A stretch of DNA of 31,305 bases from Cochliopodium minus (taxonomy: Eukaryota; Discosea; Himatismenida; Cochliopodiidae), in the NCBI GenBank assembly GCA_024220525.1, contig JAMYWO010000364.1, forward strand, positions 4,000 through 35,304, given 5' to 3'. The notes under the pieces were generated by a model. It ran no database searches. It was not told the origin of the DNA and saw only the letters and a list, made by a program, of their open reading frames with translations. Made by a program: the position numbers and the translations under genes. Below are positions 4,901-31,305 of this stretch, in pieces (within the stretch, counting starts at the first letter, position 1; the number at the start of each line of letters is the position of its first letter).

Positions 4901-5077
4901 TTTTAATTTATTTGATTTATTTAAAAAGTGCTGGTTTGGATGCTCCATCTAATTGCAATGTCGCCATACAAAAGATAACTTCCAACGTGAGATCGCTCAA
5001 ATCTGTTCCCCAAGAAATGATCCAATACATCAACCAAATCACATCTCTAGTAAAACATTCTATTTCAATTTTTTTTG

Positions 5078-5133
<56 letters not shown>

Positions 5134-5154: not shown

Positions 5155-5155
5155 N
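5155..5155. other. Assembly gap (single N)
   Basis: One ambiguous base separates an intron poly-T tract from the last 22 codons of a beta-trefoil gene. The kinase-like gene stops here without its kinase domain, and the trefoil gene to the right has no start. A single N therefore stands for missing sequence of unknown length and not for a miscalled base. Confidence 0.85.
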
Positions 5156-5224
5156 GCTGATCCTAATACTTCTGTAAATCTTGCACAATCACCAAAAGAA
5201 TGGGAACAATGGACTGCAAACTAA
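5156..5224 (+). CDS. C-terminal tail of a six-repeat beta-trefoil (hisactophilin-like) protein
   Basis: Twenty-two codons and a TAA encode the end of the last repeat (key residues KEWEQWTAN, then stop). The DNA is identical to the end of the gene at 30563-31297. The rest of the gene is missing because of the N at 5155. It may be the tail of a separate copy, or the real continuation of that gene misplaced by the scaffolder. It is not evidence for a separate functional gene. Confidence 0.8.
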   Translation, partial: ADPNTSVNLAQSPKEWEQWTAN

Positions 5225-5232
5225 TCAATTCC
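5156..5232 (+). repeat. 77-bp sequence identical to the window end (copy 1)
   Basis: All 77 bases directly after the N match 31229-31305 exactly, and the match starts at the first base after the gap. See the partner entry and the finding on k-mer overlap. Confidence 0.95.
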
Positions 5233-5386
5233 CAATTTATTTTAATTTCTTTTCATTGAAAATAATATTAAAATTTTGAAAACTAATTTTAAAAGTTTTT
5301 TTCATTCATTATTTTTTTTTGATTAATGAAAATTTAAAAAATTGATTATAATTAACAATAAAAACAAAATATAATAATTTTAAAAT

Positions 5387-5472
5387 AAACGACACCGTAG
5401 CTTCGTGTTTAGTCTCCCACCATACTTAAACAGCTTGACTTTGCATAAATTCATCATGATTTGATCGTTAAT
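5387..5472 (-). pseudogene. 5S rRNA relic with internal deletion
   Basis: Read on the minus strand, about 86 bases follow the 5S rRNA plan. A 5' end with AACGATCAAATCATGATGAA resembles helix I, loop A and helix II. An AAGTCAAGC block matches box A of the internal promoter. The sequence TATGGTGGGAGACT resembles the conserved TGGGTGACC region of helix IV/V, and the end GGTGTCGTT can pair with the 5' AACGA. About 30 bases of the helix III region and the 3' strand of helix II are absent, so this is not a normal 120-base 5S. A 5S-derived short element is the alternative. The next gene on the plus strand, a beta-trefoil gene, starts about 330 bp away. Confidence 0.68.
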
Positions 5473-5806
5473 AACAACTTTTTATAAAAATAGCTCCACA
5501 AAACTATATAATAAAATAACTAACATGAGTTTAAATTCATCATTTGAAGGTTTAGTTGACGTTTTACATATTTGAAAGATCATGAAACTAATCAATCAAT
5601 TATTTTATTTATAGGCAAATTCTATTCATAATTTAAATTTAAATTTAATTAATAAATATTTGGATGAAATTTTTTTTGTTTGAGAATAAAGTTAGGTTTC
5701 ATCCAAAACAAAATAATAATAAATAATAAATTAAAAAAATTTTAAAATTTAAAAAAAAAAAAAAAACTTAACAAAACACTAAATAGTTATATCTTACCAA
5801 AGAAAA
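5473..5806. other. Intergenic region upstream of a beta-trefoil gene
   Basis: About 330 AT-rich bases lie between the 5S relic and the next start codon, with long A/T runs near 5640-5770. They presumably hold the promoter. I recognise no motif and no gene. Confidence 0.5.
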
Positions 5807-6544
5807 ATGTCACATATTGTCAATGGATTAAAAATTTCATTCAAAACTCATCATGGAACCTATCTCAGAGCAAACCAAAACAACACAGTGGATCAATCTC
5901 CACATTCAAAAGAGTGGGAGCAATGGACAGTTGAACAAAAAGGGAATCAAATCTGTCTGAAATCTCATCACGGCACTTATCTTAGAGCAAACAAAAATAA
6001 TACAGTGGATCAAGCACCACATTCAAAAGAATGGGAGCAATGGACAGTTGAACAAAAAGGGAATCAGATCTCATTGAAATCTCATCACGGCACTTATCTT
6101 AGAGCTGATAAAAATGGATCTTTTGATTTGGCACCACATTCTAAGGAATGGGAGACATATAATGTGGAAATACATGGGAATCATCTTGGCAATAGAGGCA
6201 TCATCAAATTAAAATCACATCATGGGAACTTCCTCCGTGCAAATCAAAACAACACTATTGATTTGGCACCACATTCAAAAGAATGGGAGCAATGGACCGT
6301 TGAATATGTCAGTGGTAATAAAATCTCTTTGAAATCACATCATGGAACCTATCTCAGAGCAAACCAAAACAATACAGTGGATCAATCTCCACATTCAAAA
6401 GAATGGGAGAATTGGAATGTTGAATATCATAATGGATCCATCGTTCTCAAATCTCATCATGGTACTTATCTTAGAGCCGATAAAAATGGATCTGTTGATT
6501 TGGCTCCACATGCAAAAGAATGGGAACATTGGTCCTTTAATTGA
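5807..6544 (+). CDS. Six-repeat beta-trefoil (hisactophilin/fascin-like) protein
   Basis: Intact single-exon gene of 245 residues. It consists of six repeats of about 40 residues, each with a core close to LKSHHGTYLRA, then N/D-rich and V-D-x-A/S-P-H blocks, then KEWEQWTVE. Hisactophilin and fascin build one beta-trefoil from three such repeats, so six repeats imply two trefoils. A longer linker (HGNHLGNRG) between repeats 3 and 4 fits this. Hisactophilin is a His-rich actin- and membrane-binding protein that senses pH, and the SHH motif in each repeat here is suggestive. Actin binding is inference. There is no signal peptide, so it is probably cytosolic. The start sits in A-rich context (agaaaaatg). 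It is paralogous to the genes at 6692 and 30563. Confidence 0.85.
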   Translation: MSHIVNGLKISFKTHHGTYLRANQNNTVDQSPHSKEWEQWTVEQKGNQICLKSHHGTYLRANKNNTVDQAPHSKEWEQWTVEQKGNQISLKSHHGTYLRADKNGSFDLAPHSKEWETYNVEIHGNHLGNRGIIKLKSHHGNFLRANQNNTIDLAPHSKEWEQWTVEYVSGNKISLKSHHGTYLRANQNNTVDQSPHSKEWENWNVEYHNGSIVLKSHHGTYLRADKNGSVDLAPHAKEWEHWSFN

Positions 6545-6691
6545 TGAGAAAACCATATTTATTTAGAATAAAAAAAAAAGGATTAAATTGTTTAAAAAAA
6601 TAGTTTGATTTGGGAATTAAAAAAGCCAACTTTATATTTAAAATTAAAATTCAAAATGCCAAAAATATTTACAAAAAAAAAAATTTAAAAA

Positions 6692-7974
6692 ATGACCAAT
6701 ATACAAGAAAAAATCAAAGATGGTGGAACCATTTCATTAAAATCACAAAATGGAGGTTACCTTTGTGCGAGTAACATAAACAAAGTAAGTATATCAACAA
6801 GATGTAATGAACAGGATCATTGGAAAGTAGAACAAGTAGGTGCATGTTCTTTTGCTTTTAAATCTATTCATGAAAAGTATTTGAGAGCTAATTGTAATGG
6901 TTCTGTTGATCTTTCTTTTGATCGGAGAGAACATGAAATTTGGATTGCAGAACAAAAGGGATCTGCTTTTTTTGCTTTCAAGTCTTGTTTTGGAAACTAT
7001 TTAAGATCAAACGATAATGGTGTTGTTGATCTCTTTTTACTTTGTCACACCAGGTATAAATTAATTCGATCATTATTTATTTATGAATTTATCTTTTTGA
7101 ATAACAATTATAAATCCTCAATTTTTGAGTATACTTTTTCCAAATTCACTTTTAATAAAATCTTTTTATTTCACTTAAAATTAAATTGTGAAGATTAAAA
7201 TTGTATTATTTATACTTAATTTCGTTGCATTTTACCTTTTTCATCAATATTTTAACTTAAATTTGAAGTGAATTGTGGTTGATTGAAGAAATTTCAGTGA
7301 ATTCAAGACATAATGAATATTATTCTTTCAATACACCTCATGATGAGCCATACATTCCTCTCTATCCAAGAGAATACCTAACACCCAACTATAATTGCGA
7401 TTATATTCAGTATCAACCAGTCAAAGCATTATCTTCATTACCACAATATCAAAATAAACCTCCCCAAAATGAGTATCAATCACCCACACGACCAACATCA
7501 TATGAATTACATCCACAAGGTAAAAAAAAAATGATTGTTTGAAAAAAATTTTGGCGCCAAAAAATTCATTTTTTTTTGAATTTAGTAAATCCAAACCTTT
7601 ACCTTCATAATGGAAGAATCGTTTCTCTTAAATCATTTCATGGAACATATTTGTCTGGAGATCAAAATATGACAGCTAATCTTTCGACATTCATTGGGGA
7701 ATGGGAGAAATGGAAAATAGAAACTCATCAAAACATTGATAACAAAACCAACATTTCTTTCAAATCTGTTCATGGGACTTATTTGAGAGCAGAATCAAGC
7801 AAAAAATTAATGTTGAGTTATGTTTGTGGTGAATTAGAAAGATTCTCCCCTGAATTTCACGATGGATATTTCAATTTCAAATCTTTTCATGGTACCTATT
7901 TAAGAGCTGAGACAGATTGTAAAGTCTCACTTGGTAAACATGCAAATCATTTTGAGCAGTGGATAATTAATTGA
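6692..7974 (+). CDS. Two-trefoil hisactophilin-like protein with proline-rich linker
   Basis: Exons 6692-7053, 7269-7519 and 7586-7974 join in phase to give 333 residues. The first exon holds two and a half diverged repeats (cores LKSQNGGYLCA, FKSIHEKYLRA, FKSCFGNYLRS). Splicing to exon 2 completes the third repeat: HTS-ELWLIEE parallels the REHEIWIAEQ end of the previous one. A linker of about 70 residues rich in Pro, Tyr and Gln follows, and then three more repeats (LKSFHGTYLSG, FKSVHGTYLRA, FKSFHGTYLRA). The result is trefoil, linker, trefoil. It is more diverged than the six-repeat paralogs next to it, and the His pair is mostly lost. The donor at 7054 (GTATAA) and the acceptor at 7268 (GAAG) are usual for this genome. 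Function is not shown; actin bundling is a family-based guess. Confidence 0.75.
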
Positions 7975-8436
7975 TAAATGCAAGTGAGGTTTTAGTCATT
8001 TGTTCTTATTTTTTTGATTGTGACAAATTAAATTGTAAATTTGGTTTCAAAATTTCTGAAATTGAAAAAATATTTAGTAATTTAGTATTAATGTTTGTTA
8101 TTTCAAATTTAAAGTCCATTTTCATTTATCAAAAAAATTTATGATCATCAAATTTTTGTCTAAATTTCTCCTTTATGATCTTATTATGATTTTTAGAAAT
8201 AAAATAGTTCTTATGAAATCCTCAAAAATTAAAAATGAAGAATTTGTGGAGTCAAATTAAATTTATATACCTTTTTTATAAAATCAAGACATCGCTTTCT
8301 TCCAAGATAAAAGCCTAAAATACGATTTTATTTTTTTTTCCAACGATCATATGAAATAAAATAAAAAAATAAAAAAAAAAAATCAAAATTCTATTTATTA
8401 CGAATTTTATCAACACCTAATCAATCATATAATTAA
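7975..8436. other. Intergenic region
   Basis: About 460 bases between two plus-strand genes. AT-rich, no ORF or RNA gene recognised. Confidence 0.5.
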
Positions 8437-9378
8437 ATGAAAATACAAAATACCAATGATAAAGTAATGGGAAGTATTATTATGGATAATGAAAAGATCG
8501 AAGACTTTAAGAGAAATAATTTGCTGGATATTTCACACATCCATCTCAATACAAAAGAGGATAATAATATTTTTGGTGAAGAAGAGACTCCGAACCAAAA
8601 TATAGGATTAAACTACTTTAGTAACATCTGCCATTCAACAACAGAAAATATAAGATCAATCTATTATTCTTATATGAAAAAACTTCCACAAAAATTTCCT
8701 GAAGTGACATATCAAGGTAAATAAATACTCACTTTTGATATAAATTCATCAAATAATCTTTTACAAGTCAACATTGATTTTGTTCAATATATATAATTCA
8801 AAAAGTGTTAAGACCAATTATTTTTTTTTACAATAAATTCATACCATAAACTTAATCATTACCTTTCTCCTTAATTATCAATTTAATTATTGAGGGTATA
8901 TAAATAAATTAATTCCTTAAACACAAAAGTCTGAAAAATAAAAAATATTTATTCAACTAAAATTAAATTAACTTTAAAAATAATAATAAATAATTAACTA
9001 AATTTCATAAGAAGATCTCCTTCTTTACAATTCATTTAACCAAAAAAAAAAAAGATTAAAATTCAAATAACTAATTCCTCCTTTTTTCTAGAATTCTCCG
9101 TGATAAAGCCGGGCTGGCTGTATAATCAAAAAAGAAACCTAAGAGTGACTGATGAGTTTCTGTTCAGATTGATTCCCGAATCCTCATTGATCAGATCAAT
9201 GAGACCCATCAAGGAGATAGAGAAGATCATCATCAGATCCAAGATCTTGTTTGAGATCCATTGGTCTGAGAAGGATCTCAAGAAGGACATTGATATCTAC
9301 GAGATTGGAAACATGGATTCCTTTTTCAAGGCTATCAGCAAGTACAATCATATCTTGATTGTTGACGAAAAAAAATGA
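8437..9378 (+). CDS. Small protein with possible PH/myosin-TH1-like domain
   Basis: Two exons, 8437-8716 and 9092-9378, join in phase (G plus AA gives Glu94) for 188 residues. The first exon is acidic and polar with no recognised domain. The second encodes a compact segment: the stretch RNLRVTDEFLFRL, basic strands (IKEIEKIIIRS), and a final helix (MDSFFKAISKY). The pattern 'R-x-L-x-V-T-D-x-x-L-F-R-L' followed by strands and a C-terminal helix resembles the TH1 domain of class I myosins and PH-like folds, which bind acidic phospholipids. This is a weak match by eye, so treat it as an unidentified protein with a possible membrane-binding domain. The exons differ in composition: exon 2 is richer in GC. 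The single intron is 375 bp and otherwise featureless. Confidence 0.6.
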
Positions 9379-9715
9379 GAGGAGATTTTTTTTTATATAA
9401 AAAAATGAATTATGATTTTTTTTTTTTCCTCTCTTTTCAACTTTTGTATAAAAAAAATTAATTTGTTTTTTCATAAATTGTAATTAAATTTTGTAAAAAA
9501 AAAAAGAAAAAAAAGAGTTTGGATTTGGTATTGATTGTAATGAAAAGAAAAATTTTATCAAACAAAGAAAAACAAAAAGAAACACAAAGATAGAGAAGAT
9601 AAAAATATAAATAATTTTATCTAAATAAATTATTCAAAAATACAACAAGAAAAATAATTAAAAAAAAACCAACAAAAAGCAACCACCAACAGAGAAAAAT
9701 GATCCTTTTTTATAT
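9379..9715. other. Convergent intergenic region
   Basis: About 340 bases between the 3' ends of two convergent genes. It is made of T runs on the left and A runs on the right, as expected for two 3' untranslated ends. No gene seen. Confidence 0.5.
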
Positions 9716-12700
9716 TTACTTTGAAATGATCTTCTTTTTGAGGAGCTTCTTTTCAAGTTCACTGAACTGAGAGGTTTTTTGGAATCGAGAAAAAGATTCG
9801 TTCATCAAAGATTGAATTTCAAACTTTGCTTGCTCAAAAGCTAATAAGAAAAAAAATAAAATTATTAAAACTAAAAAAAAATGAAATTTAAATTAATTTT
9901 GTTTACTTTCTTTAGATGGATTTTTTTCTAGTTCTTGCTCTATTTTGCTTCTAATTCTACCAGAAATGTTGATCGCTTGGGGAGCATCATTACGAATGAA
10001 ACGATTGAAGATTTGAGGGGCGATGAGATTCCTCCTTTTCTGTTTGACGAGAGTGAAAAATTTGATGGAAAAAATGTAAAACAAAAGAATCTCTTCACAA
10101 TGCTCATTGCGTAAAAACTTTAAAAAAGCTTTGATACACAAAGGATAATCTAGCCAAGTTTCATTGAAAGAAGTGAAATCAAAATCGCTCTTTTTGTGGT
10201 TTTTCTTTTCACTGCTGTCGGTGGAAGAAACGCGGGACTTGCTGCTGGTACGAGAATTTTTTTTTTTTTTGTACTTTGGAGATCCACGCGAGCTTCGAGG
10301 AGTTTCCTTAGAGACGCTTCGGTATTTGAGATAATCATACGAATGAGACTTTAATTGGTACTCCACTTCGAAATAGGCTTCGTCGTAAAGGTCTACTGGA
10401 AAATTGTTGGACAAAACGTTTTTCGAAATGCGTTTGGTGACCTCCAAGTTGACGGTGATCTCCGAAACGCCAAAGAGATTGGAATTTTGCTTGAAAATGA
10501 AGTTGTGGTAGATGTTTAGGCCGAGAAAACTTCTCTTGTTGTTCGAGATGGTGCTGCGGTACTCGGAGACTTGTTTCCAGAAATCGAGGATTTCAAAGGA
10601 ATACACAGAATGGAGGTAGTTCTCAAATTCCTTGGAATAATAGAGCAGATTGGTGTTTTCGATGCGACCGTTGACGCCACGAGGAGACAAGGACATTCTA
10701 TAAAAAACGTTGTTCAAAGAGTTTGTGTTTTCTTCTTCTGTTGAAAGCTTGCTTTCAGTAGTGTCCAATGCGGTGTGGTTGAAGAAAGATCTCGGACTGG
10801 TGTCACCTGAGTCGCTGTCCTCCGAAGCGATGAAAGAGTTCGTGTTGTTTTCGTTCACTTCGTTCATCCTCTTTTTCTCCATGATGTTGATCAATGGATT
10901 CAATGTGGTGGTAGACTTTTGTGACTTTAATTTCCCAAACTTTGTTTTGGGAAGATCAATGGTGAGACGTTGCAAAACTGCAGGTACTTTGTCTTCTTGT
11001 GTTACTTTAGTTTTCAAGGGTTCAGAGGAGAACATCTCCTTTTGCACTTCAAGTCCGTTTTCTTCCATTGCCTTTCTTTTGATCGCTTCTTTCATCCTTT
11101 CTTCTTTCAATTTGAGTGTCAGTTTGTCAAAAGATTCGAATGATTTTTGGTATTCTTCCCACTTTATGTCGTTCAACATCAACAACTTGTTGACCTTTTC
11201 GGATTGCTTGAGTCTGTCTTCCTTTCCCCTCTCTATTTTCTTTTTGAGTTTGTTTTCCCCAAAAAGAGGATTCCTCTTCACTTTGATAGAACTCTTCACC
11301 CCAACGTTCTTGATCTTGTCGAGATTAAGATTGGAAAGATCAACATTGTTATCCCCAAAAAGCTTTCTAACATTCACATTATTAGAAGGGTACTTCAGTT
11401 CTTGGCTCAATGAATTATGTGTTTCCTCTGCTTCCGAAGAACCATAAGCAGGAAAGAAAGAACTAGGTGAACGAGGAATGCCTCCATCTTTTCTTGGAGA
11501 AAGTTCTGAAGAAAACTCTATCGAAGGTTCGTGATGTTGTGTCAAAATTGGCTTCAAAATTTTTCCTCTGTCACTTGATCCAAAAGAAAACTTTCTTTGT
11601 GGTGCTGATCCTTCTCTCAAGTTCATTAATCTAGGAGAATCTTTGGCTTTAATTCTTCCAATGTGCCCAATGTTTTGAAGCTCCAACTTATTGTTCTCTA
11701 CGTCTTTTTTGAGTCTTCTTTCGTTAGGAGGCGATGTCAAGCTGGAGATATCTAGTCGCATCTTGTTGTAATCCTTTTCTATTTCCTTATTTTTTTGTGT
11801 ATCTCTTTCTTTTTCTTTCTTCTTGTTGATTCTATTGTTTTCTGGTGTGGTTTTTTCTTTTGTGTAGTTTTGTTTCAGTGGCTTGATCACATCCATCCTC
11901 AATGGAGATCCAAGTGATGTAAACTTTAGGTTTCTTGGAGAGGATCTGCTATAATGCTTTTCCTGCTCGTATAACTTCTTTGTATACTTGTTTGGCTTAG
12001 ATTTTATTTTGGAGCTCGTGTTAATCAATTCTTCCTTGTTATTCTTTTTTTTTACCACTGGAGATTTTTTGTGGAATTTGTCAATACTCTCCAGATCAAG
12101 CGATTTTACAACAGCCTTTGGGAATAATCCTTTTTGTTTTTGAATATTTCATTAATTTGTTTGAATATAATTTGGAAATCTTGGGTTTTCTATTGCGCAC
12201 ACAAAAATTTTTTATTTGTATTATATTGACTAAATTTTACTTTTATATCAACTAAAAATTTGGTATCAATTGATCAAATATTCCATTATATTCAAGAATA
12301 ATTTGACAAAATGGATAAATTTTACATTTTTTAAGTGAAAATAATTATTGAGATCGTTATAATAAATAAAATAATTCAAATATAAGGTGAATTTTTTGAT
12401 TGTGAGATAATGTTTTTAGGAAAAGTGGAAAGACCAATAAAAATTTTAAAATTTAATTTATTTTACCCTTTTGCCCAGAAAATACGCCTGTAAACCATCC
12501 ATTCTCATTCTTAGCAAGCACAGTGATGATATCTCCCTTATCGAATTTTAAATATTTGGATCCACCTACCTGGAATGGCTGAAGCGCTTGGACTATATCA
12601 ATTGGAACCCTATCATCCACTTTCTCTTCATGATCCCCACTCTTGTTTAATTTCTTCTTGCTGTTGAGGATACTACTAAGACTATGATGGGATTGTGATG

Positions 12701-13064
12701 AACTTATTTTATTTTTGGAACTTGGCAATCGAGAATTGCTTGGAGAGTTATTGATAGAATTCATCTTGAAGGAGTTCAAATTATCAGATCTATTTTTCTG
12801 CGTGAATAGGGATGCCAAATTTATTGTTGAATATCTTGTTGGGGCACTCTTTGATCTTGTACTATTCTTTTCTTTTGTCTTCACTTTCGATCTTGCTTGT
12901 CTTTTATCGTCTTTATTTCCCAAATTGATGTCATATTCTTTCAAATCGAAGAAATTTTTGCTATTAAATTTATTCAGATTGATTCTATCTTTGCTATTGA
13001 ACATTTTCTTTGTGTTTATAGAGAATAACTCTATATCTTCGCATGAATCCAGTATTGTTTCCAT
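9716..13064 (-). CDS. SH3 domain plus tandem RGS domain protein
   Basis: Exons on the minus strand: 13064-12467, 12129-9907 and 9840-9716, phases matching, 981 residues. The SH3 domain covers about residues 156-212 (ALQPFQ, then KFDKGDIITVL, NGWFTGVF and GLFP) and is split by intron 1 exactly at Gly200. A long polar region with SPR motifs follows, with a coiled-coil-like stretch near residues 505-565. RGS domain 1 lies at about 696-803 (FENYLHSVYSFEILDFW ... LYDEAYFEVE). RGS domain 2 lies at about 855-975 (FLKFLRNEHCEEILLFY ... TFEQAKFEIQSLM) and is completed only by the third exon. RGS domains speed GTP hydrolysis by G-alpha subunits and SH3 domains bind proline-rich partners, so this is likely a multivalent scaffold in G-protein signalling. 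Whether each RGS domain is catalytic cannot be told by eye. Confidence 0.82.
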
Positions 13065-13572
13065 TTTCTTGCAATAAATATTTATAATTCAAATCTACAA
13101 CTGTAAAAATGATGTTTTTCAATCTGAAAATATGTATTTCTCTCCTTTTCCCAATATTTTTTTATTTTTTTAAATATTTATTTTATTTTATTATATTTTT
13201 TATTTTTTGAAATACTGTTTATTTTTATTTTTCCATTCACATATTTTTACTAATTTTCAACTTTCTAAAACAAATTTTTGATTGCATTTGTAAATATTCA
13301 AGTCAATTATCAATATGTTTCAGAAATTTTCACAAAAAAAAACTAAAGAAATGTTGTCTATATTTTGAAGAAATAAATTGATCTCAAAATACTGGATTGT
13401 CCTCTAATTTGCTGACCAATTAAATTTAGAGGTGGAAAAAAAATTGGGAAATTAATTGAAAAATTCAATATTTTTCAGAATTGAATCTAAAGTGATTGGA
13501 TTATATCAATGAAATATAAATAGATTTCAAGATTCAAAAAAATCAATAATGGTGATTAAAAAATAAAAAAAA
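13065..13572. other. Divergent intergenic region
   Basis: About 500 AT-rich bases between the divergent starts of the SH3-RGS gene and the helicase gene. It must contain both promoters. No recognisable motif or gene. Confidence 0.5.
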
Positions 13573-16500: not shown

Positions 16501-16919
16501 ATGATCATTATGAAAATGAGGATTATTCTCCAAAGAATAAAAGCAAAAGAGAAAAAAGAGACAAAAAGAAGTCTTCCAAGAAGAAAAGAGACCCCCTTCC
16601 CAATGACTTTGATGATCAGTTCGAAAGAGATGATGATGTTGGCCAAGATGATGAAATCATCAACACTCCTTCCCTCAAAAAATCTTCCAGAAAGAAATCT
16701 GATCGCAAGAGAAAAAATGATGACATTAGTTCTCTTTCTTCCAACAGGGTTCCTTCCGAAAGCAAAAAATCAAGCAAGAAATCCAAGAAGAGCAAGAGAG
16801 AAAACAATTCTGATGATGTCAATCAGAAAGCAATTGAGAATCTTACCAAATCCAATCAGCCTCTTTCCTTGAATCAGCAAGAGGAGCTTGTTTTAAATCT
16901 CATTTCCAAAAGAAATTAA
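13573..16919 (+). CDS. DDX10: DEAD-box RNA helicase DDX10/Dbp4
   Basis: Six exons (13573-13740, 13812-14010, 14087-14199, 14411-14782, 14920-15252, 15366-16919) join in phase for 912 residues. Motifs in order: Q-motif region near 110 (TDIQ), Walker [10 protein letters not shown] (127-135), PTREL (164-168), TPGR, DEAD (237-240), SAT (268-270), [10 protein letters not shown] (about 387-396) and HRVGRTAR (417-424). Phrases such as [10 protein letters not shown] and the region after motif VI ([17 protein letters not shown]) are specific to the DDX10/Dbp4 branch. That helicase acts in the nucleolus in early 18S rRNA processing and release of U14 snoRNA. The C-terminus (from about residue 550) is alternating acidic and lysine-rich low complexity, typical of nucleolar proteins. 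The large antisense frame opposite it is a by-product of this codon bias. Upstream lies the divergent SH3-RGS gene. Confidence 0.93.
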
Positions 16920-18957: not shown

Positions 18958-20079
18958 ATGAATACACATAAGAGAAAAAAGGTGAGAGCAGCATGTGAGA
19001 ATTGCAGAAAACTGCATAGAAAATGCGATGATCACAGACCATGTTCTCGCTGTATAAAGTACAAAAGAGAATGCACAGATATGCCCAAATCAAACACCAA
19101 AAAAAAGCTAGAGGGAAATAATTGTTCAGAGAGCTTTTCTATGAGAATTTTAACAGAAGAAAATAACAACATAAATGGATTCAAATTAATTAACTATAGA
19201 GGAAAATCAGAATATGAAATTTTGAAAGAGGAAGTTAAGATGTTGAAAAGGAATATAGATGAGATAGATAAGATGAATCTTCCAGATGATATAGATAAAT
19301 TTGATCCCATCGAATTATATCTCTATCAGAAAAATCATCAACTCCCACATCCAAGTATTCCGCCACTCACAACAAATCATCTCAATAGCAAAGCGGGATC
19401 AATGTACATCATATCCAAATTTAAAGATGAGATAATGCCAGATGAGTATAATAGTAAATTTATGACCATTATTGATATTGGAGAAATCATTTCTCTTATG
19501 TTTGGTTTTTCTCCACATCAAATTATTGGAAGTGAGTTGTATACCATTTCTCATAAATTTGATGAGCATGCTCTGAGACAAAATTCCAGGGTAAAAAAAA
19601 AAAAATTTTAAATCAAAATAGGAAAATAAAAAAAAAATAAATTATTTTTGCTGAAAAATAAAATAATAAAAAAATAAATATAAAATTAATTAAAAAAAAA
19701 AAAATTTGAAAATCATGAAATATTCTTCCTTTTGGATGGGAAAGAAATGAATTATAAAAATTATATAAGAACAATCCAACCATAAATTAATTAATATATA
19801 TATATTTTGTATTCAAAAATAATAAATGAAATATTTTTTTTTTTCTTTAAAAAAAAGAGAGTATTCGAAATTTGTAAATCAAAATTTAACTACTTCAGAT
19901 TGATATCATATGGAGAAAACAAAGAAGGAAAAATAATGGGAGTTGATTGTTCTTCTGTAATTTATTGTGATGACGATCTAAAGCCGAAATACTCAATGTT
20001 TTTTGTGAAACAAGTAATGGAAGTTGAAAGAGTCTTCATAAATGACGATTTAAGGCCACTCATGATTCCGTATTCTTAA
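18958..20079 (+). CDS. Zn2Cys6 (Gal4-type) PAS-like transcription factor, copy 2
   Basis: Two exons, 18958-19590 and 19858-20079, give 284 residues. The Cys positions (13, 16, 23, 29, 32, 39) equal those of copy 1, and the whole protein aligns with it: the NGF-L segment, the LPDDID block, the MYI-SKFKD PAS-like start, the FGFSP-Q-I block and the C-terminal LKPKY/DLRP block. The only intron lies at the same residue as the last intron of copy 1 (after HALRQNSR, aligned with EILKYFAK). Copy 1's first two introns are absent here. So the two arose by tandem duplication, followed by intron loss in this copy or gain in the other. The basic patch HKRKKVR just before Cys13 could serve as nuclear signal. 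Targets are unknown. Confidence 0.85.
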
Positions 20080-20270
20080 GAAAGAAATTTTTTTTTTCTC
20101 AAGATAATATATATTAATGTACTTTTTAAAAATATTTACTTTTCTACTTTGGTTTTTTTTTGTTGTATCTTTGCATATCTTGATCTATATTTTTATATCT
20201 TCACATTATATTAATAAACTAAACAGAATGAAAATTCATAGAAAATTCGAATTAATAATAAAAAAAAAAA

Positions 20271-22908
20271 ATGAATAAATATCAAATATTTACTTTCTTA
20301 TTTCTATCTCTGCTAATTGGTTTATCCAAATCAGCTGGATGCAATTCGAAAACACCATGTAAGTATAAAAATTCAATTGTATAAAAAAATAAATAAATAT
20401 TTTTAAATTAAGCATATGGAAACCCAAATAATTACCCTGTGAATAATTGGAATAACAATATCAAATTATATAATACAACCACAAATGGAAAATCAGTAAA
20501 AAAAAAAAAATATTTTTTTTTTTTCATTGTAAATTGAGAATTTATTTTTTTAATAAAGTATATTGTTACGGTCCCAAATGATGGAGGAAATTCTACATCT
20601 ACCTTTTTCATTGTAAGACAATTTTAAATATAAATATTTTTTTTTTTCAAAGTGAACAAAATTGATTAATTTTTGCTTGATTGTATATACTTTATATTAG
20701 ACACATCTTTATGGAACACCATATCAACAAGGTAAAATATTTAGAAATTTAGAAAAAATTTTTTTTTTATTGAGTACCTTAATATTTTTTTTCGCACGAA
20801 AGGATACGCTCATGGATCATTGTATAACAGTTTTTTGAAGGGTTTTATTTCAGATATATGGTCATATTTCGAATCACAGGTGGAAGAAGTGGTCAAATAT
20901 GTGTAATTTATCTTTTTTTCATTTTTTTTATTTTTTAATTTTTTTTTCTTTTGTTTTCAGTTAAATTATTTTTTCTCTTAATTTAAATTTTATCATCATC
21001 AAAGACCCAAATGGCTCGCGAAAATGATTGCAGATGTGGGATTGGATGTTGCACTAGATCTCACCTATGAAATCACCAAAGGATTCACCAACCCCATTTT
21101 CTACGAGGAGATCAAAGGTATCTCTGATTCAGCGGGTAAAAAGAAAAAGAGAAAAAAATTGATTAATTCAAAATTTTTTCAATTGGAAAAGGAATCGACA
21201 ACAAAATGTTGATCCGCATTCATATGATCGCAGGTAAAAAAAAAAACAATATTTATTTTCAAAATAATAATGTTTATTTTAATTTATATTATACAACAAA
21301 CAATAACAGGGCTCACTCAAGGAAAATGCAGGTAAAAATAAATCTTTTGAAAAAATTTTTTTTTTCTTTATCATTTTTTCTTTAATCTTATTTTTGATAA
21401 AGTATGTTGGGAGCTTGGGGAAATTCTTTGGATCCCAAATGGTCAGGAAAGTTACTCCAACTAAGGTAAATAATTAACGTAATATTTTCAAATTAATTTT
21501 TAATAATTTTTTTAAAATGTAGAGCATTAGACTGGGATATGGATGGTCCTTTTAGAAATTATGCATCTGTATATCGTCTTTCTTTCTTTCTTTTCAATTT
21601 TTATATTTCGTTCGTTTTGTGAGATATGATTTTTTTAAAAAAAAAATTTTTTTAAAAGGTAACAGTTTATCATCCTGTCAATTCGACATATGGTCATGCT
21701 TTCGTAATCTTTAAAAAAAATTCTTTGAAAAAAAATTCTTATTAAATGTCAAAAAAGTCAAATGTTGGATTCCCTGGATTTATTGGTGGATTGACAGGTT
21801 AACACACTTTTTTTTTAATTATAACTATTTTCTTAGAATAAATTTTATTGATAGGCGTTTCTGAAGCAAAGTTGGGTATTTCCGAGATTGGAGTTTATTT
21901 TTCTGACCCAAGTAATCATTAATTTTTTAACAAAAAAACATTTTTAAAGAAATTTTTTTTTTATAAAAGGTTTTGGAGAGGAAAGCAGAGCTGGTTTACC
22001 TTTCGTTTTTTTGTTGAGAGAAATCCTCCAATTTGATTATACTGGTAAATAAATTTTTATTATTTTTATTTTTATTTCATTTTTTTTTTTTTAAAATTGT
22101 TAGTTGATGATGCAATAAGCCGTATGGTTAATGCACCAAGAACTTGTGATCTGGTAAATAAAAATTGATAATTTTTTTTTCATCAAAATTTAAAAAAGTA
22201 ATCAATGATCATTTAGATATTGGGAGTTGGTGATGGAAAATTGGGTAATAAAATTTTTTGGACTGTTTTTTTAATTTATTTAAATAATTTTTAACAATTA
22301 TGATGTTTTTTTTTCTTACAAAGGAGTATTCAGGGGATTTGAGTATTCTTATTCAACCTTGAAAGTTTTTGATGACCAAAACATGGAACCTAACGAAGTA
22401 TGGCACCCAAGAATTCCTCAAGTAGTGTACTGGGGGATGGATTGGTAAATTTTTTAAATTTTTATTTTAATAATTTTTATTTTTTTTATTCTTTTCAAAA
22501 AAGGCTTTGTCCTGGATATGACATCGTTCTTTCTGGCCAAATTAACAAATACCACGGGAATTTAAGTCCCATGCAAGGGATTCAAAATATCTCTTCAGTT
22601 GAGCTTTCTGGTTAAAAAATTTCCCATTAATTTTTTTATTTTTTTATTTTTTTATTTTTTAATTTATTTTCTTTTTTTATTTTTTATTTTTTTGTTTTTT
22701 TGTTTTTTTATTTTTTTATTTTTTATTTTTTATTTTTTAATTTTTTTTTCTTGTAGGAAGTAACCATGTTGCCTATTATGACTTGACTGATCTCCACATG
22801 TACCTTTCTTTTGCTGCCGGTCACAATATTGGAGGATTAAAGGATGCTTATGATAGACAGTACACCTTCTTAGACTTGAATGCACTTTTTAATGAAACTT
22901 TAAATTAA
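20271..22908 (+). CDS. Secreted Ntn hydrolase (acid-ceramidase-like/C45 AAT family)
   Basis: Nineteen exons with consistent phases give 444 residues: 20271-20358, 20413-20495, 20559-20612, 20701-20731, 20803-20902, 21005-21135, 21192-21233, 21310-21331, 21403-21465, 21523-21568, 21659-21703, 21758-21797, 21855-21911, 21970-22044, 22104-22153, 22217-22244, 22324-22444, 22504-22610, 22757-22908. A signal peptide ends near Ser21-Ala22. The family core is clear: YGTPYQQGYAHG, CSMLGAWG, LQLRALDWD, NVGFPGFIGGLTGVSE, ARTCDL-like RTCDL, VYWGMDW and AYDRQYT. Cys183 in CSMLGAWG is the expected nucleophile exposed by self-cleavage. Such enzymes hydrolyse amide bonds; lysosomal lipid amidases and the Dictyostelium dcd1 proteins are likely relatives (from memory). 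Substrate unknown. The gene is far more intron-dense than its neighbours, with one exon of only 22 bases that carries the run-up to the catalytic Cys. Confidence 0.87.
22620..22745. repeat. Poly-T/(TTTTTTA)n tract inside an intron
   Basis: The intron 22611-22756 is almost wholly ttttttta-type repeats with a short run of ttttttg units in the middle. It is the longest of this gene's introns (146 bp). Low complexity only. Confidence 0.8.
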
Positions 22909-23044
22909 AAAGAAAAAAGTTTCATTCATTTTTTTTTTTTTATTTTTATTTTTTTATTTTTTTATTTTTATATTTAATATTAAAAAACTTGAAAAGATTT
23001 TTTTGAGTGAATCAATTTGAAATTCATACCATATAAAAGAAGAT

Positions 23045-24770
23045 ATGAATTTGCCTTTGTTTAGATACAATTTTAATTCAGAATCATGGGATGCTCATTA
23101 TTCATTTGAAGGAGATGGGAAAAATAAAATCCCTGATGAATTTAAATTGGCAAGCTATAATGTGTTGGTGGGTAAATGATAAGATACAATTTACAAATCA
23201 TCAAATATAAAAGAGAAATTTTATATTCACCGAATAAAAATTAATAACTCATTATTAGAATATGGATCAAATAGATAACATTCAAGATCTTTATATTGGA
23301 TTATGTTATTGAAAAGATTTATAAAGCTTATTTACAAAATATATTTGAAAAAATATTTATAGCTGAGTCAACAAACAATGAGAAATTTGGAGAAGTGAAT
23401 ATAGACGGATTGAAAGAAGAAAATGTGAAGATAAAAGAAAAAATAGAATTCATATTTAGAAAGGAGGAAGATAAAGAAAGAATTTTGGAGGAGATACTCA
23501 ATATGAATAAAGAATTCAACGAAGATGAAGTTTTATTGTCTTTGATGAAACACATTTCGAAAAAGAAAGAGGATTTCCAAAAAGGGATTTCGATTCTTCT
23601 TAAAGTGCAAAACAAAACAGAAAAAAAAGAAACGATACTAGATTCCATTCGAAAACTTTTTTTACATTTAATTTCAAATAAACTTTTTGATTTTGATGAA
23701 GAAAGTGTGGAAAATTTATCCTACTTGATAGATTTGTCGATTTCTCATGGAGTTTTCTCGAAAAGCGATGTTGAAGAAGTTGTTTTTGGAAAGGGAAAAG
23801 TAGCGATGCTAACTCAGTTACACTTGCTAAATTCTGAAGAAAGGTTTAACCAACAATTTAAAGAACTTGAAAAATTAAATGCGGATGTTATAGGTATATT
23901 AAATTATGAACTTTAATTTATTAATTTAATTTTTAAATTTATTTTTTTTTTACACAAAAGGATTGCAAGAAGTACAAATTGGATACATAAAGAGATTAAT
24001 ACAACAAAAATGGATAAAAAGGAATTATTTCATCAGTGACATTCCCAAAAGTGAAACAGAGCTTTACAATAGTGGTAATTTATATTTTTTATTAATTTTT
24101 TATTTTTTTATTTTTATTTATTAAAAAGGAAAAGTAAACGATTTCACTCACTATCCCTTTCTCCTTGTTCGTATTCCTTTCAAAAAACTTGAAAAACTAA
24201 ACTTGGGTCACAGATTCAACTTAAAATTGACTTTACATGATGATTTCCAGATAAACTGCGCTCACTTGAAAGCAGGTGATGGGTTTGTTGACGAAAGAAA
24301 AAAACAATTTGAAGAAATCATTTTATTTCAAAGCAACAATGATTTTTTAATTTTGGGTGATCTCAATATTCATAATGTCAATGACGAAAAAAACATTGAT
24401 TTTTTGAATCTTTTTGATTTTTGGGAAGAAACTAAACACAATGAAAACGAATATACTTTTGATTCCCAAAACAATTCAATTATCAAGACTATTTACTTTA
24501 ATTGGTTTTTATTTTTATTTTTAATTATTTTTTGTTTTGTTTTTTATTTTTTACCTTTTTATTTTTTATTTTTATTTTTCCTTTGAAAGTGAAAAAAGGA
24601 GAATGAGACTTGACAGAATTTTACACAGCAAAGAGTGTTCTTACAAAACTTCTTCTCCTGTTCAATTTTTTGCAAACAGACCATATTATGATGAAAAAAC
24701 AAAAAAATACAAAAACCCAAGCGATCACTTTGGAATAACAACAAATCTCAAGAAATTTAATCACAAATAA
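23045..24770 (+). CDS. EEP-family (endonuclease/exonuclease/phosphatase) phosphodiesterase with large insertion
   Basis: Exons 23045-23171, 23327-23893, 23961-24074, 24129-24504 and 24590-24770 give about 454 residues. EEP motifs appear in order: ASYNVL (Asn39), GLQEVQ (Glu235), CAHLKAG (His315), LGDLN (Asp347, Asn349), RLDRIL and SDHFG (Asp440, His441). These are the metal-binding and catalytic residues of the fold. TDP2-like or nuclease-like activity is possible and the substrate is not evident. Unusually, some 190 residues, mostly charged and helical, lie between the first Asn motif and the catalytic Glu, where about 30 are normal. Two splice sites are less sure. The acceptor at 23326 was picked because it alone keeps the frame from the donor at 23172. 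The donor at 24505 (GTTTTT) is atypical, with an alternative acceptor at 24598. No signal peptide. Confidence 0.72.
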
Positions 24771-24847
24771 TAAAAAAAACCAAAGAAATTTATTTTAAAA
24801 AAAAAATTAAAAAAAAATTAGATTCTTCTTTAAACAATAATTTAATT

Positions 24848-27125
24848 TTAATTTGGCAAAGGAGTATTGTAGAAATGCTTGTTTAAATGCACTTTAATTC
24901 CATTATTCTTTCCTCCATCACTCTTATGAACATTGGCAGAAATTTTTAAAGAATCTTCGGGAAGATTAGGGTTGAAATCAAATTGGATCATCAAAGTGGA
25001 TTCGTAAGCGAAATTGAAATCAAAAGAGGAAGCGCCTTGATTCGAATTGAGGAGCTCTTTACCCTCTATAGTGTTTTTCAAGTTTTTGGCTGCTGTAATT
25101 GATTGTTGGACAAATAGTGGATGGAACTTTGGAATGGGCTGTTTAATTAAAAAAAAATTTTGTTTGTGAAAATTTTTTTTTAAATAAAATATTAAAATAA
25201 AATAAAAAAAAATAATTTATTACGTGATCATTTTTTTCTGGAAGGAACATATCTGCATTCTCTCCAATCACAAAGACATCTTTTCTACCTTCCAACTGGG
25301 TGGTGTTGATGTTGGTGATGATCTGGTCATTTTCGTTGAAAAAAGGTTTGAGGTATTCATGTGGGCGTGATGGCCATGACCCAGATAAAAATATATCATA
25401 AGATTTCGATTTCTCCTCATCTATTTTTTTGATAAAGGTAATTTGATATTTTAAGTTTTAAATTAAATTTAAATAAATGTTTGATTTTATTGAATAAATT
25501 TTGTACTTAAAATGAGGGTTTCAAAAATTGATATCGCTCTCAATTTATTCATTTTAGCTCATACATTAAATTTGGATCATTTCGAATCTTTTGTAAACAT
25601 ACATGGAATTTTCATTTTATTTTATTAAGCAAATGGAATAACAAGAATTAAATTGAAATTAAAACAATAAAAAATTAAATATTTCACATTCTAATGAAGA
25701 TATGTTAATCTTGGAATAAAGAGTATCCAATTTTTTTTTATAAAATCATCAAAATGGATTTAAAGAATGATATCAATTATAACAATAATTTTCTTTAAAT
25801 CAATCTGATATAAATAGATCAATGAAAATTTGCTTCAAAGAAAGTTCTTAAAATTTTATTATCATTTATCATTTATCATTTATGCAAAATAGAAAGAAAA
25901 TTAAGATATTTTGTAAAGGAAATTTCTTTTTTTTACCCTTTTCTTTATAAATGATCTTCCTCTTTCTATAATCAATCTCTTTTATTTCGCAATTCGTCAA
26001 TAGCTTGATATCAAGTTCAAGAAGCCTCTTCTCGATGAATTCCTCCAGTTTCTTTCCAAATGCAGGATTGGGAGAGGAATAGGGGGTGAAGAATAGAAGT
26101 GTGATATCATCCTTTTTGTTAAGTTTGCTCAATAATTCCTCTATTGCAAAGATATATTCGAATGGGAGGAAGGGGCATTTATTTGTATGGGGTGAATTGG
26201 AGACCACTATCTTTCCCTTGTCCAATCTTTCGATCGCATTCAATACATGAGACCAATTATCGTCATATAAATTCAATGATCCTTTCAAAATTAAAATTTA
26301 CATTCACAATATGAAAATTGATCACATCATTATAATACAATGATAAAAATTGGGTTTATTTAATTTAATTGTATCGGGATCTAAAAAGAGTTTTTTTATA
26401 TTTGATCAAATATATTTTTCAATTTAGATCAGTGAGGCAGATACATTCATCATTATAGGTTATTTTGATTTTTTTTTTCAATTTTGGAGAGTATATATAA
26501 AAAGTTTAAAGATCTTTGAAATATAATCAAAATTATTATTTTATAATTATGAATCAAAATCAACATCTCAAGATCTGAATGTATATAGAATAAAAAATGT
26601 TATATTTTGTATAATTTTTTTTTAAAAATTGCATTTACCTTCTTTCAATCCTTTTATTCTTTCTGGTTGGAAGATATTATCTGATGAGATGACCAGATAA
26701 TCATAATACAACTTGGCAGCTTTGGTATAAATTTTTTTCTTCTCCTTATCGATCTCCAAGATCTCATCATGAACGAAATCAATGTTATCATATTTCAAAT
26801 TTTTATAATATCCTATAGAATCAAGCATCCCTTCCTCTCTCATCAAATTGTTGCCTATATAATATGGCCTATCTTCAATCACTGTCAAATCTATTTGCTT
26901 ATTATTAATAGATGATTGAATCTCCTCTATGAATCTCAACCCAGCATATCCTGCACCTAACAATACAACTTGCTTTCTATTCGGATCTTTTTCATAAACT
27001 CCTTTTTTGTTCTTTACTATCATTTTTTGTTTCTTGATTGTCAAATTGGTTTTTGGAACAACCAAATAGGATTCTAATGCATTTGATCCAACAACCTCGA
27101 TAATTATTTTATTTGTTTCTTGCAT
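24848..27125 (-). CDS. FAD-dependent oxidoreductase of SQR/FCSD-like type
   Basis: Minus-strand exons 27125-26639, 26281-25937, 25420-25224 and 25138-24848 join in phase for 439 residues. The first Rossmann motif is LLGAGYAG (residues 55-62), preceded by about 50 residues of uncertain role. The block KCPFLPFEYIFAIEELL (Cys198) corresponds to the KCxGxPxE region of sulfide:quinone oxidoreductases and flavocytochrome c sulfide dehydrogenases. VFVIGENAD (about 326-334) is the C-terminal FAD motif, with Glu in place of the usual Asp of 'IGD'. HPLFVQQSITAAKNL matches the following helix. The second redox Cys of true SQRs is absent, so sulfide oxidation is doubtful and an NDH-2/AIF-like role remains open. 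No transmembrane helix seen. Introns are 357, 516 and 85 bp; the 516-bp one contains an ATCATTT triple repeat near 25861. Its 3' end converges on the EEP gene, 77 bp away. Confidence 0.8.
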
Positions 27126-27804
27126 TTTTTTTTTTTTTTTTTATTATATTTTATTTACCATTGAATGAATCAGTTTTCAGCCCATCAAAACATTGAATTT
27201 TCTTCTAAAAACTTTCATTTCAATTGTCTTACAGATTTTTAAGGCTTTTCATACTACTGTTTTTAGAAAATTAAAAAAAATTTGTGTGATTCAAAAATTA
27301 AACTGGAAATGAACTGTTGAAAAGAGACAATTTAACTAATAAAAGATTAAAACACTTTGTTTATAAAGTTTTTTATTTTGATCTTAAAGGAATTTCTTTT
27401 AAATTTTAATTATATAAAAAATTTTTAAGATTAGAAGAGTTTTTCTTTTGGGACTCAACATTATCAAACAAGTTAAATCTTCTGGATGAAAAACTTCAAT
27501 AAAGAAGAACCATCATTCTACTTTTGAATATCAATAATGAACAACTAGCCTTTTTTTTTAAGAAATTCTTGAGATGGTGTTGAAATTTAAGAGATATCTT
27601 TAAATTATTAAAATTTTCGGATAATTTGAGATCTCTTTTTCAATTTTAATCTGAACATTATTTCTCAAAAATTCATCAAAATAAGCAAAAAAGAAAAAAA
27701 AATGAAAAACAAAAAACAACAAAAGTAAATCATACCATTCCAATATTTACTAATAATTTAACTTAAATTGAAATCTTTAATTAACCTTAAAATAATTTCC
27801 AGAA
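27126..27804. other. Divergent intergenic region
   Basis: About 680 bases between the divergent starts of the flavoprotein and eIF2 gamma genes. It must hold both promoters. A T-run lies directly upstream of the flavoprotein start (an A-run on its coding strand). No gene or RNA recognised. Confidence 0.5.
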
Positions 27805-29545
27805 ATGAATAAAACACTCAAAACTAACAAAGAAAACAATATTCTTAACAAACATTTCAATATGGACGAGAATATATCAATCAAAGAAAGCACATTGGAG
27901 ATGTCCTCGATCAATGCATTGACGTCAAATGTAATTAACAATCAACCAACAATAAATATAGGGATAATAGGACATGTTGCACATGGAAAATCGACAATAG
28001 TGAAAGCATTGACAGGAGTGCAGGTATAGAAGAAAAAAAATTTAAATTTTCTCATCAATTTCTCAAATTTTTTTTTTTTTTTTTAATAGACTTCAAAACA
28101 TAGCTCAGAAATGAAAAGAAACATCACAATGAAATTGGGATATGCAAATGCAAAGATCTATCAATGCAATAGATGTCCAATACCCAATTGCTATAAATCT
28201 TATGGATCAGAGATGACAGGAGAATTGAAATGCAAAGATGAAAGATGCGATGGAAAGCTCAATTTGATCAGACACATCTCCTTTGTAGATTGTCCAGGAC
28301 ATGAAATCTTGATGGCGACAATGTTATCGGGAGTATCAGTGATGGATGCGGCAATATTGGTGATAGCGGCCAACGAAAAATGTCCGCAACCTCAAACAGA
28401 AGAACATTTGGCAGCAATAGAATTAACTTCTTTAAAAAAAATCATAATCATCCAAACCAAAATAGACTTGGTTTCGCACAAGGAAGCGGTAGAGAGTTAT
28501 AAACAGATTATGGACTTTATTCAAGGGACCAAAGCTGAAGGATCTCCTATTATTCCTATTTCCGCACAACTTGGATTCAACATGGACGTTGTTTGTGAGC
28601 AGATGGTCAAACACATTCCTGTTCCTCATTGCTCTTCTTTTCTTGAGCCTCCTCGTATGTTTGTCATCCGTTCTTTTGACATTAACAAACCTGGTACTGA
28701 AGTAGATGATTTAAAAGGGGGTGTCGCTGGTAAACTTTTTTTAATTTAATATTATTTTTTTAATTTATTTTTTTTAATTTATTTTTTATTTATTTTTTAT
28801 TTTTATTTTTTATAAATTTAATAATAATTGATTAATTTAATTTATTTTATTTTTTATAAATTAGGAGGATCTTTGACACAAGGAATCTTTTCTTTGGGAG
28901 ACAAGGTGGAAGTGAAACCTGGCATAATTAGCCAACAGAAAGACGGAAGTTTTAAATGCACCACCATTTACACAGAAGTAAAGTCTTTGTCTTCAGACAC
29001 CAATAACCTTCAATTCTCGTAAAATAATTTTTTATTGTTTTGAGATTTTTTTAATTTCCATTTAAATATTTTCTTTTTTATAAATTTACATTTTTAATAA
29101 AATTTTTTTTTTTATATTTAAAAGTGTTCCAGGTGGATTGATTGGTGTTGGAACTAACATCGATCCTATTCTTTGCCGTGCAGACAATCTTGTTGGGCAG
29201 CTCATCGGAAAAGTGGGAACGTTGCCAGAAGTGTACGTGGAAATCGAAATCTGCTTCTTCCTTCTCAACAAACTTTTGGGTGTGGGGGAAGGTGAAAACA
29301 AGAAAGCTAAAATCAACAGACTTAGAAAGGGAGAAACTTTAGTTCTTAATGTTGGTTCTACTAATACTAAAGGTTTGGTTAAGGCTGTTTGTAAGGATTT
29401 GGCTATCATTTCTCTTCATTGTCCTGTTTGTTGTGAGGTCAACGAGAAGATTGCCATTTCTAGGGAGTTTGATAGACATTGGCGTTTGATTGGCTGGGGT
29501 GCTGTGCTTTGTGGTACTACTGTTGAGTCGGAGATTGATTTATAA
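27805..29545 (+). CDS. EIF2S3: Translation initiation factor eIF2 gamma subunit
   Basis: Four exons, 27805-28023, 28090-28729, 28865-29018 and 29125-29545, join in phase for 477 residues, the normal size. This subunit binds GTP and Met-tRNAi and delivers it to the 40S ribosome. Visible: G1 GHVAHGKST (56-64), a zinc ribbon with Cys99, Cys102, Cys121 and Cys126, G3 DCPGHE (140-145), the eIF2-gamma hallmark [17 protein letters not shown], and G4 as TKID (196-199). Domain II includes [13 protein letters not shown] and [13 protein letters not shown], and domain III has LLGV...[11 protein letters not shown]. The C-terminal IGWG region is present. G4 carries Thr in place of the common Asn of NKxD, a change also seen in Rho-type GTPases, so it need not impair GTP binding. 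Confidence 0.95.
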
Positions 29546-29790
29546 AGTGGAACGAGATGATGATTTTTGTATATAATTTTATTATTTAATAATTTTTAAT
29601 TAAATTAAAATGATTTTAAGAAAATTATTGGAAATTTTGTTTTCATATCACCACGCGCTAGTTTTTTTTGATTATATCAGGACTTTTTTTTCGTTGAATT
29701 TGATATTAAAATATTTTTAAAACCAATAGGATGTGAAACTAAATATAACTACCATATAATACCCCTCATGAGTACTGTTTAATTTTTTTT
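29546..29790. other. Intergenic sequence before the second gap
   Basis: About 245 AT-rich bases downstream of eIF2 gamma, ending in a T-run at the N. Nothing recognised. Confidence 0.5.
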
Positions 29791-29791
29791 N
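29791..29791. other. Assembly gap (single N)
   Basis: One N interrupts a 5S rRNA gene directly: 5S sequence begins on the next base, whereas a T-run lies to the left with no 5S 3' half. Missing sequence of unknown length is therefore likely here. Confidence 0.85.
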
Positions 29792-29859
29792 GCTCAATGA
29801 TGTTTGACTTCGCAGATCGAGACGGGATGCGGTATATTCATCATGATATGATCGTAACC
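29792..29859 (-). rRNA. 5S ribosomal RNA gene, 5' half (cut by assembly gap)
   Basis: Read on the minus strand from 29859, the sequence starts GGTTACGATCATATCATGAT and follows the eukaryotic 5S consensus: helix I, loop A with CATATCA, helix II 5' strand ATCATGATGA, then loop B/helix III with ACCGCATCCCGTC and GATCTGCGAAGTCAAAC. The helix II 3' strand CATCATTGAG pairs with ATGATG near the 5' side. GAAGTCAAAC covers the TFIIIA/box A start. The 3' half (loop E, box C, helix I 3' strand) is absent because the N at 29791 follows. One extra base appears in the helix III loop (GTCTCGATC against the common GTCTGATC), and AAAC stands for AAGC, so the copy may be slightly diverged. Multi-copy 5S explains the contig break. 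Confidence 0.85.
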
Positions 29860-30562
29860 AAAAGTTTAACAAAAAATAACACTCATAACAAATAAAATTG
29901 AAAAATGAAAAAAAAAAGATTTGAGTTTGGACAAAGTCTTTGAGATTTAAATTAATCAAAATAGATAAAAATCAAAATTTGGTCAGAAATGAAGAAATAA
30001 AAAATTTGATTATGAAACTTCTTTCAAATTTATTTTTTTGGAAATATGATTGTTTTTGAAATCAAAATTAAAATTATTTTCTTTTTTTTTTCTTTGATAA
30101 ACTCTTACATTCTTTCCAAATAATATTGTTTCTTTCTTTTCTCATATCCCAATTTCTCTTATTTCTTTGAAGTGATAAATTATTATCCATCAAATTATTG
30201 GGTGTAAAAATAAAATTAAAAGTTATTATTCCAAATCTCTTCATATCAAACAACAAGCTATCATAAAAATTAAAAATTTATCTTGTTTCCACTTTGATCA
30301 TTCAAAAACAATTTTTTTTTTTTAAATTTTTTTTAAGTGAAAAATATTTTCTCTTTTTCTTTTTGATATTTTAAAATTTTTTCTTTTGTTTTTTTTTTGA
30401 TCTTGTTCAATGGAAAACAATTGAATTTAAAATTTGTATTTTATTTGATTCACTTCAAACAGAAACAAAGAAAATAAAAATGAAAATAAAAATGAAAATA
30501 AAATTAAAAAAAAAAAAACCAAAAAACTTTTTCTATAAAATTAATAACCAACAAAATTAAAA
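29860..30562. other. Intergenic region between 5S and beta-trefoil gene
   Basis: About 700 AT-rich bases between the divergently placed 5S gene and the trefoil gene start. Near 30469-30502 a 12-base unit (gaaaataaaaat) occurs about three times. Minus-strand frames here are short and unconvincing. The trefoil promoter is presumably inside. Confidence 0.5.
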
Positions 30563-31297
30563 ATGTCTTACATTGCACATGGATTAAAAATTAACATCAA
30601 ATCTCATCATGGAAATTATCTGAGAGCAGATACAAATGGAACAGTAAACCTCACACAAGTACCAAAAGAATGGGAACAATGGACTGTTGAATTTGTTGGA
30701 AACAAAGTCCAACTTAAATCTCATCATGGAAACTATCTCAAAGCAGATAATAATGGAACAGTAAATCTCACACAAGTCGCAAAAGAATGGGAACAATGGA
30801 CAGTTGAATTTGTTGGAAATAAAGTACAATTCAAATCTCATCATGGAAACTATCTCAAAGCAGATAACAATACCAAAGTGGTTCTCACACAAGTTGCAAA
30901 AGAATGGGAACAGTTTTCAATTGAAGTTGTTGGAAGTAATTTGAATCATGGACGTAAAATCACTCTTAAATCTCATCACAATACTTTTCTGAGAGCAGAT
31001 ACAAATGGAAGTGTTAATCTCACACAAGTTGCAAAAGAATGGGAACAATGGACTGTTGAATTTGTTGGAAATAAAGTACAACTCAAATCTCATCATGGAA
31101 ATTATCTCAAAGCAGATACAAATGGAACAGTGAGTCAAACAAAAGTTGCAAAAGAATGGGAACAATGGACTGTTCAATATGTTGGAAACAAAATTCAATT
31201 GAAATCTCATCATGGAACCTATCTTAGAGCTGATCCTAATACTTCTGTAAATCTTGCACAATCACCAAAAGAATGGGAACAATGGACTGCAAACTAA
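30563..31297 (+). CDS. Six-repeat beta-trefoil (hisactophilin/fascin-like) protein
   Basis: Intact single-exon gene of 244 residues with the same plan as the gene at 5807: three repeats, a longer linker (VVGSNLNHGR), three repeats. Each repeat has a core close to LKSHHGNYLKADNNGTVNLT followed by KEWEQWTVEFVG. The repeats are closer to each other, in protein and DNA, than those of the paralogs: the DNA for KEWEQWTVEFVGNKVQ recurs three times with few changes. This suggests recent internal duplication or gene conversion. Two beta-trefoils are expected. Actin or membrane binding, as in hisactophilin, is inference. No signal peptide; A-rich start context. Its last 69 coding bases are identical to 5156-5224. 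Confidence 0.87.
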   Translation: MSYIAHGLKINIKSHHGNYLRADTNGTVNLTQVPKEWEQWTVEFVGNKVQLKSHHGNYLKADNNGTVNLTQVAKEWEQWTVEFVGNKVQFKSHHGNYLKADNNTKVVLTQVAKEWEQFSIEVVGSNLNHGRKITLKSHHNTFLRADTNGSVNLTQVAKEWEQWTVEFVGNKVQLKSHHGNYLKADTNGTVSQTKVAKEWEQWTVQYVGNKIQLKSHHGTYLRADPNTSVNLAQSPKEWEQWTAN

Positions 31298-31305
31298 TCA
31301 ATTCC
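31229..31305 (+). repeat. 77-bp sequence identical to 5156-5232 (copy 2)
   Basis: The final 77 bases of the window repeat the first 77 bases after the N at 5155 without a mismatch. The match stops exactly at the window end here and starts exactly at the gap there. Confidence 0.95.

Follow-up and report, generated by a model that had tools for sequence, protein, structure and literature searches.

The question raised by this stretch of DNA from Cochliopodium minus (the window: 31,305 nucleotides, positions 4,000 to 35,304 of contig JAMYWO010000364.1 in GenBank assembly GCA_024220525.1) is why 77 bases that open one of its contigs recur, letter for letter, at its very end. Bases 5156-5232 and 31229-31305 are identical at 77 of 77 positions by direct comparison within the window, as a preliminary description drawn from the letters had reported. 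The first copy begins at the base that follows the N (5155), and the second finishes at 31305, where not only the window but also the scaffold (C359, 35,304 bases) comes to an end. The window contains just two Ns, each standing singly, at 5155 and 29791, and its second-longest exact direct repeat, among repeats of at least 25 bases, measures 42 bases. A search of the unmasked sequence of the assembly (598 scaffolds, 44.65 megabases; 44,654,751 bases) with the 77-mer returns nine matches, only these two exact, the best inexact one being 91% identical over query bases 20-77. By a hand estimate, the probability that such a match arose by chance is negligible. The informative part is less the identity itself than the coincidence of both its boundaries with contig ends. 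The pieces concerned are the following, A and B being our names for the two contigs that share the bases.

5155: single-N join; the contig on its left ends in simple ATTTTT repeats
5156..29790: contig B, 24,635 bases
5156..5232, plus strand: first 77 bases of contig B, overlap copy 1; 22 codons and the stop of a beta-trefoil protein (trefoil) gene
29791: single-N join; dispersed repeat on the left, part of a 5S ribosomal RNA (rRNA) gene on the right
29792..31305, plus strand: contig A, 1,514 bases; part of a 5S gene, spacer, a complete trefoil gene and the 77-base overlap
31229..31305, plus strand: last 77 bases of contig A and of the scaffold, overlap copy 2

A ceiling at 77 bases

We surveyed 48 contig ends: the two sides of 13 single-N joins (26 ends), 21 scaffold starts and 1 scaffold end. 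The masked starts of C594 and C359 were excluded, and N runs of 333-3,999 bases, taken as masked sequence, were not counted as joins. For each end we took the longest exact match anchored there, compared with other places in 264,753 of the 44,654,751 bases; values below 77 are lower bounds. Throughout the stretches surveyed, all 13 joins consist of one N each, and other short N runs were not seen. Not one of the 48 ends shares more than 77 bases exactly. Simple AT-rich sequence makes up 18 of the ends, and none of these reaches 77 or more. The non-simple ends (n = 30) divide into 8 at exactly 77, 5 at 70-76 and 17 with no partner of 60 bases or more. The 8 ends at 77 represent 7 pairings: the window pair (counted twice), five that lie within 5S genes, and one that links C138 to C112, where the exact 77-mer of C112 stops at the N at C138:1466.

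A ceiling of 77 that is reached on several scaffolds is the pattern left by a de Bruijn graph with k = 77. As PMC7850483 describes such a graph, each link between contigs is given the length -k, meaning that the two overlap by k. With a probability of about 0.93 in our estimate, the identity in the window is an overlap of this kind, as SPAdes-type assemblers leave at branch points; the shared 77 bases arise from the assembly process, not from the biology of the genome. SPAdes, for which k = 77 is usual, is the program that such a value is commonly read as. Everything that marks SPAdes-type k-mer overlaps is seen here (constant exact length, position exactly at contig ends, location at repeat edges) and no departure from that pattern was noted. 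What brings the overlap to light is that the scaffold sets the two contigs about 26 kilobases apart and does not join them. The preliminary description had proposed both a k = 77 graph and contigs that are neighbours in it. The counts above bear out the first proposal, and the overlap at contig ends together with the 77-base ceiling supports the second.

Several points weigh against this reading. The sample of ends was drawn largely by queries from this contig and is hence rich in 5S ends; partners were sought only in the 264,753 bases, where 17 of the 30 non-simple ends found none of at least 60 bases; and no record of the assembler or of k was found in the sources consulted. Writing one N for a negative gap is a habit of SSPACE, of which a literature look-up gave no confirmation. 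The available text of PMC4177539 and of PMC8110574 does not state that a scaffolder does so, and among the matches listed in a literature search no phrase naming a 77-base overlap was found.

The branch points of contig A and the order of the contigs

In such a graph, contig A would end on the 77-mer vertex where contig B starts. That A and B were left unmerged suggests a third edge: the vertex probably has at least one more, outside the scaffolds surveyed. The assembly search found no other exact copy of the 77-mer as a candidate for it; the last scaffold, C598, has 10,038 bases, and shorter pieces seem to have been left out of the assembly. Two contigs at one vertex do not imply that reads cross from one into the other, since at a vertex with two incoming and two outgoing edges contig A could always lead elsewhere. 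The features around the two ends are these.

29792..29859, minus strand: 5' part of a 5S rRNA gene (Rfam), cut by the N
29792..29868, minus strand: 77-mer at the left end of contig A, composed of 68 bases of the 5S gene and 9 of flank; exact match to C13
30563..31297, plus strand: trefoil gene 1, 244 amino acids, Fascin domain family (Pfam, 104.6 bits)
5389..5468, minus strand: degenerate 5S rRNA relic from which pieces of 10 and 18 bases are missing
5807..6544, plus strand: trefoil gene 2, 245 amino acids, 57% identical to gene 1
6692..7974, plus strand: trefoil gene 3, diverged, probably spliced, with putative exon limits
29647..29790, plus strand: first 144 bases of the dispersed repeat, also on C112, C138 and C131

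The left-end 77-mer of contig A is found unchanged on C13, in a stretch whose end is C13:234546; from the next base inward the two sequences differ. A 77-mer held in common that diverges at the next base means that contig A starts at a branch point too, and so carries one at each end; this second vertex would lie within a dispersed 5S gene. The 5S match scores 54.6 bits with Rfam (cut-off 38), with the second half of the alignment beyond the N on the other contig; only the first 68 bases of the alignment belong to contig A. Six 5S copies elsewhere in the assembly score 97-99 bits. The 5S genes are dispersed in the genome (at least 19 matches, 18 of them above the cut-off, among the matches listed), and several are interrupted by an N.

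On one unbroken contig, the minus strand of C13 presents a gene end that resembles the 77-mer and, 175 bases further on, a complete 5S gene, followed by a spacer like that of contig A and a trefoil remnant. The array continues through this remnant, which contains stops, to a second gene end of the same kind; after another 174 bases comes a 5S gene that is interrupted by an N and whose strand relative to the trefoil gene is the same as in contig A. The trefoil copies of the array (C13:232350-235828, minus strand) are tandem units with 5S genes; they are decayed (stops, missing parts), and the complete 5S gene among them retains 99.1 bits. Contig B in turn opens with the trefoil tail (the 77-mer), followed by 156 bases, the 5S relic, trefoil gene 2 and trefoil gene 3. 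The relic has the same orientation as the 5S genes of C13, and its alignment score is 81, versus 32 for the best of 200 simple shuffles. Because a trefoil gene end followed after about 160-175 bases by an opposite-strand 5S gene is also found elsewhere, contig A and then contig B is a natural succession.

We lean towards placing contig A just left of contig B in the chromosome. The cluster would then run 5S - trefoil 1 - 5S relic - trefoil 2 - trefoil 3, and the join of B to A across the N at 29791 would be a scaffolding error, unless contig A recurs there. The locus is an ordinary tandem trefoil cluster with an attached 5S gene, overlaid by an assembly artefact. The preliminary description had the gene at 30563 running into 5233 onward; the order and spacing on C13 make this plausible.

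Other observations speak against contig A preceding contig B. With an ambiguity of 77 bases only, single reads of more than 79 bases should cross from A into B, and the scaffolder put contig A on the opposite side of contig B. The spacers between gene end and 5S gene were compared by alignment score versus 300 dinucleotide shuffles, for eight stretches. That of contig B is only weakly like those of the C13 units and of C55 (scores of 108, 101 and 109, against 102, 100 and 100 for the best of the 300 shuffles); a flank on C146, where no 5S gene was detected, reaches 88, a score that 2 of the 300 shuffles equal or exceed. No likeness to the spacer of contig B was seen in C1, C84, C32 or, over a piece of 35 bases, C346. 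A clear homology between the sequence following the 77-mer in contig B and the flanks on C13 was considered and rejected, as the alignments contained the 5S part and are weak without it (the BLAST comparison with C13 was run with a low-complexity filter). With spacer likeness weak, the case for adjacency is made by order, orientation and spacing.

The linkage of 5S genes with other gene families is already known. For example, Euglena has a 5S gene linked to a spliced-leader RNA gene, as described in PMC2784804. A 5S gene or relic likewise lies between trefoil copies, on the opposite strand, both on C13 and in the window; in this case a beta-trefoil protein gene is the partner, and the copies are few, dispersed and partly decayed.

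Other arrangements of the locus

A less likely possibility is that the printed order is right and that the genome has two copies of the 77-mer. A trefoil gene X in the gap at 5155 would lead into contig B, and the gene of contig A would lie to the right of B and lead to sequence unassembled here; the k = 77 overlap would stay, and A and B would not be neighbours. Some trefoil gene must in fact precede contig B, since it opens with 22 trefoil codons and a stop. Several members of the trefoil family have similar 3' ends, the scaffolder put A after B, and the third edge made probable by the unmerged contigs agrees with this order too. However, it needs two genes identical over their last 77 bases, and the closest other 3' end is 91% identical (query 20-77). 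The join it relies on, moreover, leads from a dispersed repeat to a 5S gene, where read pairs may well mislead. Both joins in the window lie inside repeats, so that read-pair scaffolding is probably least reliable there.

The preliminary description also took the unit 29792-31305 for a collapsed repeat, present at both 5155 and 29791. We regard this as improbable, even though contig A has branch points on both sides and a collapse would explain both the graph link to the start of contig B and the scaffold link to its end. The assembly contains no near-identical copy of the body of contig A, a result limited by the fact that collapsed copies do not show in an assembly. The longest other match is only 79% identical over query bases 664-1514 (about 850 bases), and higher identities belong to the 5S end, a 199-base piece on C13 (86%) and short AT-rich pieces (up to 91%). 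The flank at 5233-7300 is likewise without a near-identical match: its longest match spans about 800 bases at 69% identity, and only pieces of less than 100 bases exceed 73% (up to 85%). The claim of a collapsed repeat is thus unsupported.

It is very unlikely that the segment of about 26 kilobases forms a circle or a tandem duplication (B-A-B) through exchange between trefoil genes whose 3' ends are identical. On sequence alone this reading is compatible, as A follows B in the scaffold and the end of A equals the start of B, but some genes on contig B are ordinary nuclear ones (eIF2-gamma, a DEAD-box helicase, an RGS protein), and a simple circle would have led to the merging of A and B. Equally far-fetched is a true biological repeat, for instance by gene conversion between trefoil genes that are alike at the 3' end, that happens to stop at contig ends: both boundaries lie there, six other ends also share exactly 77 bases, and on the ground of the 77-base ceiling over 48 ends we rejected a chance repeat and a plain biological repeat.

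The trefoil genes, the joins and the use of the draft

The product of trefoil gene 1, a gene whose stop and 22 preceding codons fall within the 77-mer, has 244 residues with six SHH motifs and would comprise about two trefoils. It passes the Pfam gathering score for Fascin (104.6 bits, cut-off 23.1) and is above the cut-offs also for FRG1, DUF569 and DUF7910. Among PDB entries, a chain of glycoside hydrolase family 18 matches it best (7zoi, E = 2.6e-07), followed by hisactophilin (1hcd, E = 1.3e-05) and then fascins (E about 8e-05). These Pfam and PDB matches suggest a relative of the fascin and hisactophilin beta-trefoil proteins, whereas its length and its six SHH motifs set it apart. More trefoil relatives are found as five consecutive matches at C81:71707-76213 and two fragments at C120:487-870.

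At the left join, likely coding exons, recognized by eye at 3511-5154, reach the simple-repeat end at 5154; two pieces of this region gave no Pfam match. A gene may be cut at 5154, and contig B opens with the trefoil tail, not with the remainder of that gene. At the right join, the dispersed repeat that closes contig B is probably a mobile element; C112 and C138 have it in common over several hundred bases, and the two loci with this repeat gave 0 Rfam matches up to E = 1.

The relevance of the finding is confined to the use of this draft. The 22-codon tail at 5156-5224 repeats the final codons of trefoil gene 1 (30563..31297) and is not to be counted as a separate gene, and the joins at 5155 and 29791 are unfit for synteny. 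The single-N joins of the assembly call for caution generally, many contig ends in the stretches surveyed lying in simple repeats (18 of 48), 5S genes or other repeats. Ordinary nuclear genes in contig B are the following.

9893-12058: RGS protein
14459-16919: DEAD-box helicase with an SPB4-type C-terminal extension
18958-19611: protein with a fungal-type Zn2-Cys6 domain
28111-28746: eIF2-gamma

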